A DNA stretch of 64,000 nucleotides from assembly GCA_938074445.1 (NCBI GenBank), contig CALJEK010000001.1:124001-188000 (forward strand), written 5' to 3'. Source of the DNA: Candidatus Kryptoniota bacterium. Lineage in GTDB: Bacteria > Bacteroidota > Ignavibacteria > Kryptoniales > Kryptoniaceae. This document shows, in pieces, positions 32,001-32,925 of the stretch. Numbering within the stretch: the first letter of the stretch is position 1; the number at the start of each line of letters is the position of its first letter. The notes beneath the pieces are model-generated. The model was not told the origin of the DNA, did no database searches, and saw only the letters and a program-made list of their open reading frames with translations. The position numbers and the translations under genes were made by a program.

Positions 32001-32346
32001 TAGATTTGGGAAATTGCCTGAGGAGGCGGAGAATTTAATTTTAATTTCGAGGATAAAGCATTTATCTGAGAAAAATTATATCCAGCGCGTTGAAATTGGC
32101 AGGGAACATGTTGTTGTCATCCCTGGGGAGAATCTGATAAACTCAGAAGTTTTTAGAGAAGTTGTTGATATTTTTTCAAGGGGTTCAAGTTTAAAATTTG
32201 AAAAAGTGGCAGGAGGGACGAGGTTAGTTTTAAAATTCAAATATTCAACCACAGTGAGACAAAATCTTGTTAAGTTTTTGAGTTTGCTTGAGGAGTTAAC
32301 GGTTCAATTTTCTTATAATGAGGGAAACTTCGCCACCAATCCATAA
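29089..32346 (+). CDS. mfd: Transcription-repair coupling factor
   Basis: [79 protein letters not shown]. Confidence 0.97.
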   Translation: [1085 protein letters not shown]

Positions 32347-32925
32347 GTTTTTGTCCCCCTCCTTAAATTTTAGGACCCCATATCCTCTGTTTGATGGTAT
32401 AAGGTAAATCTCGTTGTTTTCATTTTTATACTGTCGAATTAAACCCTCGTTCTTAATTACAGCAAAAACAATGCTTCCATTTTTGAGCTCTGAATTTTGG
32501 TTTATAATTGCTATATCTCCTTTGAGAATTCCCTCTTTTTGCATTCCATCGTCGGTGACCTCAACTGCGAAGGATGGTGGGGTATCAAAGATTTTTGCAT
32601 CAAGTTTTATGGTTCCATTCAAGTTTGTAAACATCGTCAATGGATTTTGGGCGTCGAAAGTTGAGACAAGCGGTATCTCTTTAAGCTCGGTTTGAGTTCT
32701 GTCGAATTTAAAATTGTTAATGTTTATGTTTCTTGCTTTCAAGTTCGTTCTTTGAATATATCCTTTCTTCTCCAAAGCTTTTAAAACTGAGTAAGCCGAG
32801 TTTGTTGACCTGAAGTTAAATTTTTTGCAGATTTCTCGTATCGTTGGTGGTTTGTGGTTTTCAATTGTATATTTTTTGATGAATTCAAAAATTTGATTTT
32901 GTCTTTTTGTCAGCGCTCTCTTCAT
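32296..32925 (-). CDS. LexA-like transcriptional repressor, predicted autocleavage-deficient
   Basis: LexA winged helix (LTKRQNQIFEFIKKY...PPTIREICKKFNFRSTNSAYSVLKALEKKGYIQR) plus C-terminal S24 fold, with active-site substitutions. Confidence 0.9.
   Translation of the reverse strand: MKRALTKRQNQIFEFIKKYTIENHKPPTIREICKKFNFRSTNSAYSVLKALEKKGYIQRTNLKARNININNFKFDRTQTELKEIPLVSTFDAQNPLTMFTNLNGTIKLDAKIFDTPPSFAVEVTDDGMQKEGILKGDIAIINQNSELKNGSIVFAVIKNEGLIRQYKNENNEIYLIPSNRGYGVLKFKEGDKNLWIGGEVSLIIRKLNR

Follow-up and report, generated by a model that had tools for sequence, protein, structure and literature searches.

A protease-dead LexA paralogue divergent from mraZ in Candidatus Kryptonium: a candidate non-cleavable local repressor

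LexA is the textbook self-cutting repressor, and a gene in the 64,000-nucleotide stretch of DNA analyzed here (the window) raises the question of what a LexA-like protein does when the residues for cutting are gone. A sequence-only reading of this DNA had described the product as a LexA homologue that has apparently lost autoproteolysis, and suggested that it may be a constitutive repressor or one derepressed by another signal. The host is a Candidatus Kryptonium-type genome, 94% complete, whose 53 contigs add up to 2.28 Mb. The closest named relatives, at 89% and 70% identity, are Candidatus Kryptonium thompsonii JGI-4 and Candidatus Chrysopegis kryptomonas JGI-23, respectively. We consider it probable that the protein, although its annotation reads LexA, is uncoupled from RecA and acts at the mraZ-dcw boundary as a local repressor that cannot be cleaved and regulates its own gene.

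The gene is an open reading frame on the minus strand that runs from an ATG at 32925 to a stop codon at 32296 and encodes 209 amino acids (Table 1). Both Pfam domains of LexA, LexA_DNA_bind and Peptidase_S24, score above their cut-offs, and the NCBIfam LexA equivalog TIGR00498 (cut-off 110.95) is matched with 147.9 bits. The DNA-binding half is canonical LexA, as had been proposed. An AlphaFold2 model, for which 25 aligned sequences served as input, reaches a mean pLDDT of 88.4. In Foldseek it is most similar to crystal structures of LexA, the C-terminal domain superposing at ~2.3 to 2.7 Å; the whole-chain TM-scores against these structures are low, probably because the two domains are flexibly oriented. 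Pfam, TIGR00498, and Foldseek thus agree on a winged-helix domain followed by an S24 domain. A phmmer alignment with E. coli LexA (1jhf, E 5e-24) is gap-free across the catalytic region and shows glycine and arginine in place of the Ser119-Lys156 dyad, and Ala-Gln where LexA has a scissile Ala-Gly (or Cys-Gly) bond. These are exactly the three substitutions named from sequence, down to the GGA codon of the glycine, and the claim that every determinant of autoproteolysis is lost while the fold is intact is borne out by the alignments and the model. A fourth change, from Gly117 to Asp125, had been overlooked and is as invariant as the replacement of lysine by arginine. With these substitutions the protein is predicted to lack competence as an S24 peptidase.

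Table 1 Features of the LexA-like gene and its neighborhood, in window coordinates.
Feature	Position	Strand	Basis or remark
mfd, convergent neighbor	29089..32346	+	3' ends overlap by 51 bp
Protease-dead LexA paralogue, CDS	32296..32925	-	ORF calling, profile matches
S24/LexA C-terminal domain (residues 85-198), fold preserved, predicted catalytically inactive	32332..32673	-	Pfam PF00717, 66.7 bits; model and Foldseek
Arg164, codon CGA, for catalytic Lys156	32434..32436	-	Alignment; 55/55 dead, 0/63 intact
Gly127, codon GGA, for nucleophile Ser119	32545..32547	-	Alignment
Asp125 (E. coli Gly117), invariant in dead clade	32551..32553	-	55/55 dead, 0/63 intact
Ala92-Gln93, in place of the scissile E. 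coli Ala84-Gly85	32647..32652	-	Alignment
Winged-helix LexA DNA-binding domain, residues 3-65	32731..32919	-	Pfam PF01726, 76 bits
Promoter of LexA-like gene, TTGATT-17-TATATT, operator fills spacer	32962..32990	-	0-mismatch pattern once per genome, 7/7 Kryptonium
Operator palindrome TGAACAAATGTTCA, GAAC-N4-GTTC core (predicted)	32969..32982	.	Sequence pattern, conservation
Promoter-like TTGACT-16-TATATT for mraZ (putative)	33071..33098	+	Conserved block in genus alignment
Three GTGGT-N5 repeats, probable MraZ box	33109..33135	+	Conserved in genus intergenic alignment
mraZ, divergent neighbor, head of dcw cluster	33153..33596	+	ATG 33153 likelier start than mechanical GTG 33129

The loss extends far beyond this genome. 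None of the seven Kryptonium species examined has serine, lysine, or Ala-Gly at the catalytic and scissile positions, which excludes a sequencing error at the active-site codons. Homologues were gathered by similarity, a search that may miss divergent members, from 197 genomes within the class and from 396 across the phylum, and the catalytic columns of 55 sequences from 17 families (denoted here by f and a number) lack the dyad; we refer to these as dead, and to the remainder as intact. At E. coli position 117 all 55 dead sequences carry aspartate and all 63 intact ones, E. coli included, carry glycine, while position 156 is arginine in 55/55 dead and lysine in 63/63 intact sequences. The position of Ser119 holds glycine, alanine, or threonine in 54 of the 55, and the single serine is paired with arginine rather than lysine, so that no member of the clade has an intact dyad. 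The scissile position is variable (arginine, glutamine, aspartate, serine, lysine, or alanine). The C-terminal domain as a whole is conserved, with Asp125, Arg164, Asp137, and Gly198 invariant, and dN/dS among Kryptonium species is ~0.05 to 0.10 for pairs with estimable dS, some pairs being saturated. Chance decay is excluded by this purifying selection together with the invariance of Arg164 and Asp125 in the 55 homologues. In the old catalytic cleft, a salt bridge or a ligand site is probably made up by Asp125 and Arg164.

In a maximum-likelihood tree of the class, a single branch, supported at 100/99, separates all dead sequences from the rest, and when other classes and other phyla are added they form a clade separate from the canonical LexAs, window protein included, with support of 97/99; the tree is midpoint-rooted with long branches and does not fix the time of origin. 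A single origin of the dead clade is likely. By its place in these trees the window protein is a member of an old, phylum-wide paralogue family rather than a recently broken LexA. The loss of autoproteolysis noted from the sequence stands, but it did not occur within this organism.

Across the phylum the dead paralogue often accompanies a canonical LexA whose operator is different; dead and intact LexAs are both kept in families f2 and f5. Elsewhere the dead paralogue is the only S24 protein: this holds for five of the seven Kryptonium genomes, among them the host, where a search for a second canonical LexA found none (at 94% completeness), and also for three f16 genomes, one of them a single contig, and one f27 genome. 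The other two Kryptonium genomes, G134 and G139, have a canonical LexA additional to the dead paralogue. In these two species only, canonical LexA, UmuD-like, and UmuC-like ORFs lie in a row (L149:3983-6242 in G134, L150:3904-5108 in G139) with a TTAGAC-N4-GTCTAA box upstream, by its looks an acquired mutagenesis cassette; none of the remaining five Kryptonium genomes contains an exact match to this box. One Kryptonium genome carries a second RecA-family match (G092:C3:1033-1815) besides the usual recA. Where both paralogues coexist, the canonical box is either this one or, in f2, TAGTAGA-N-TCTACTA, which is unlike the box of the dead paralogue in that family, and therefore the two f2 paralogues should not cross-bind.

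As expected for a LexA, the dead gene has a predicted palindromic operator in its own promoter. The upstream region in the genus reads TTGATT-TTTGAACAAATGTTCAG-TATATT, with the palindrome occupying the 17-bp spacer between the -35 and -10 elements, and this pattern with 0 mismatches is found exactly once in each of the seven Kryptonium genomes, always at the LexA-like gene. Related boxes occur in other families: AAAC-N4-GTT[GT] in equal register upstream of the dead gene in f2, TGAAC-N4/5-GTTCA, often in tandem, in f46 and f58, and GTGAAAA-N2-TTTTCAC in f30 and f51. The dead gene-mraZ intervals of 13 family representatives contain 12 perfect TGAA-N6/7-TTCA palindromes, whereas 1000 dinucleotide shuffles yielded 0.35 on average and never more than 3; in f61, f35, f56, and several f49 representatives, TGAA-N6-TTCA is degenerate or has no match. 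In seven genomes of f30, f51, and f40, which belong to other classes, all 13 GTGAAAA-N2-TTTTCAC sites (at most 1 mismatch) lie directly upstream of the dead gene on the mraZ side, and six of the seven genomes have them as pairs with a spacing of 32 bp. Several families have tandem operators about three helical turns apart, the distance being 31 bp in f2, 32 bp in both f30 and f51, and 33 to 34 bp in f46. At one f2 locus (L018 in G007) some 250 bp of additional sequence lie between the gene and mraZ, and the conserved operator no longer stands at its usual distance from the gene start, in the manner of an insertion. A further conserved block, GTAAA..GAAATAACGC, lies at ~33024-33044 between the LexA-like gene and mraZ in the genus, and a TTTAGC..ATTATAACGGC block in f2 resembles it.

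Beyond this interval, we searched for a wider regulon. The Kryptonium genome G000 has 15 GAAC-N4-GTTC sites, of which 13 are inside ORFs, one is in a tRNA-like stretch, and one is at the LexA-like gene; sites with one or two mismatches to the operator are nearly all inside ORFs. Among the promoters read and the sites examined, which include part of those with at least two mismatches, no near-operator outside the gene's own locus is shared among relatives. The sole intergenic near-operator found in G000 has one mismatch and lies 96 bp before a dnaA-like gene (L214:714, G000:C1:73413-73426), where it overlaps a DnaA-box-like sequence. Another palindrome, ATAGAC-N4-GTCTAT, was considered as a LexA box in three Kryptonium genomes and rejected; it adjoins a pair of ArsR-like and pirin-like genes (L295:1501, L291:1501) and is probably the ArsR operator.

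The sequence-only reading placed the gene next to mfd and the dcw operon, which is correct, but the neighbor that matters is mraZ. Of the 50 dead loci with enough flanking sequence, 43 have the gene and mraZ in divergent orientation, whereas mraZ is beside an intact LexA in 0 of 75 loci with at least 700 bp upstream. Divergence was found in all examined loci of f1, f2, f16, f30, f35, f40, f46, f49, f51, f53, f56, f58, and f61, and in f5, f8, f24, and f27 the dead gene is away from mraZ in all examined loci. The arrangement with mfd is convergent in all Kryptonium genomes examined but is not general, as f2 has other genes there; the tail-to-tail overlap at 32296-32346 is 48 to 51 bp in the other species of the genus. 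MraZ is itself a local regulator at the head of dcw, with an AbrB-type fold unrelated to LexA, and here it has its own probable repeats, which we take to be a variant of the TGGG-N5 MraZ box. The predicted operator overlaps the promoter of the LexA-like gene and not the putative one of mraZ, ~90 bp away; this speaks against the local-repressor reading set out below, as do the families in which the dead gene is away from mraZ and the representatives with a degenerate or absent palindrome.

These observations suggest how the protein could work. The C-terminal domain would serve as a dimerization module, in which the invariant Asp125 and Arg164 occupy the place of the LexA catalytic site and may be joined by a salt bridge. 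The dimer would bind the TGAA-N6-TTCA palindrome and, since this operator takes up the whole -35/-10 spacer of the gene's promoter, repress its own transcription. Autoregulation is strongly indicated by the position and conservation of the operator. High-affinity sites seem confined to the dead gene-mraZ interval, as expected of a regulator dedicated to that interval, and because of this confinement and the synteny we propose that the paralogue adjusts the mraZ-dcw cell-division operon. Switching would not occur by RecA-stimulated cleavage, and a ligand, a protease, or a partner may provide the signal for derepression. More tentatively, and at some distance from what we regard as probable, the whole pseudoprotease family may have been recruited at or before the origin of the phylum as regulators of mraZ-dcw that receive their signal through the repurposed cleft, with Asp125 and Arg164, instead of through RecA filaments.

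The confinement of sites to the interval, and the tandem operators about three helical turns apart, would also suit a pure autoregulator or DNA-binding placeholder that takes no signal and affects dcw through competition with MraZ, looping, or supercoiling at the divergent promoter. We regard this as unlikely, since the conserved C-terminal domain with its four invariant residues suggests a function beyond tethering. Somewhat less likely still is that the dead paralogue is the SOS regulator of Kryptonium, inactivated by an ATP-dependent or IrrE-like protease or by contact with activated RecA without cleavage. Its canonical DNA-binding domain, the presence of RecA, and its status as the sole S24 protein in the genomes named above are what such a regulator would have. 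However, in the two Kryptonium genomes where the recA start was read, the 250 bp before it contain no box of the dead-paralogue type, the near-operator before the dnaA-like gene has no counterpart at one mismatch or fewer in relatives, and sites cluster only at the dead gene's own locus. Moreover, genomes with a canonical LexA, which is served by a box of its own, have retained the dead paralogue as well. That self-cleavage persists by unusual chemistry with other residues is very improbable: the cleft is retained, with conserved acidic residues, but the scissile position varies and both members of the dyad are replaced throughout the clade, apart from the one serine. A pseudogene or an assembly or sequencing artefact, for which nothing speaks except the lost catalytic residues, is already refuted by seven independent species, dN/dS of ~0.1 or less where computable, and the conserved promoter and synteny.

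The favored local repressor can be set against known systems. It shares with canonical LexA (TIGR00498; E. coli, PDB 1jhf) the winged-helix N-terminal domain, the S24 fold, and a palindromic operator in its own promoter, and differs from it in lacking the Ser-Lys dyad and Ala-Gly, in having aspartate for Gly117, and in forming a separate, mraZ-linked clade with a different box in the same genomes. The LexA of Synechocystis sp. PCC 6803, which has Gly-Gly for Ala-Gly and aspartate for the catalytic serine and is thought not to run an SOS response (PMC3091678, PMC7567884), is a precedent for a non-cleavable LexA outside SOS. In contrast to that single cyanobacterial lineage, the dead clade has also lost the lysine, has aspartate at 117, is phylum-wide, and is linked to mraZ. 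No LexA homologues are reported in complete Bacteroidetes genomes, and the non-canonical Bacteroidetes LexAs, S24-domain regulators of the same broad lineage, combine an HTH of the phage CI type (PF01381) with an intact catalytic site (PMC8565304), whereas the window protein has PF01726 and a dead dyad; Ignavibacteria, Kryptonia, Salinibacter, and Rhodothermus do not occur in the main text of that paper. HdiR and UmuDAb are also LexA-like S24 regulators outside LexA proper, but both undergo RecA-dependent autocleavage (PMC8565304), unlike what we propose here. In the open-access literature we found no paper linking LexA with mraZ, none on LexA in Ignavibacteria or Kryptonia, and no description of the present paralogue family.

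Because the window protein passes the LexA equivalog cut-off, an SOS response deduced from annotation is probably wrong in Kryptonia and in several classes where a dead paralogue is the sole "LexA", and one may ask if an SOS response of the LexA type exists in these bacteria at all. Dead paralogues labeled "SOS repressor" almost certainly do another job. That a whole clade retains the DNA-binding and dimer scaffold, has given up cutting through two fixed substitutions, and is linked to the first gene of the division cluster suggests direct control of cell division as a further role of the LexA fold.
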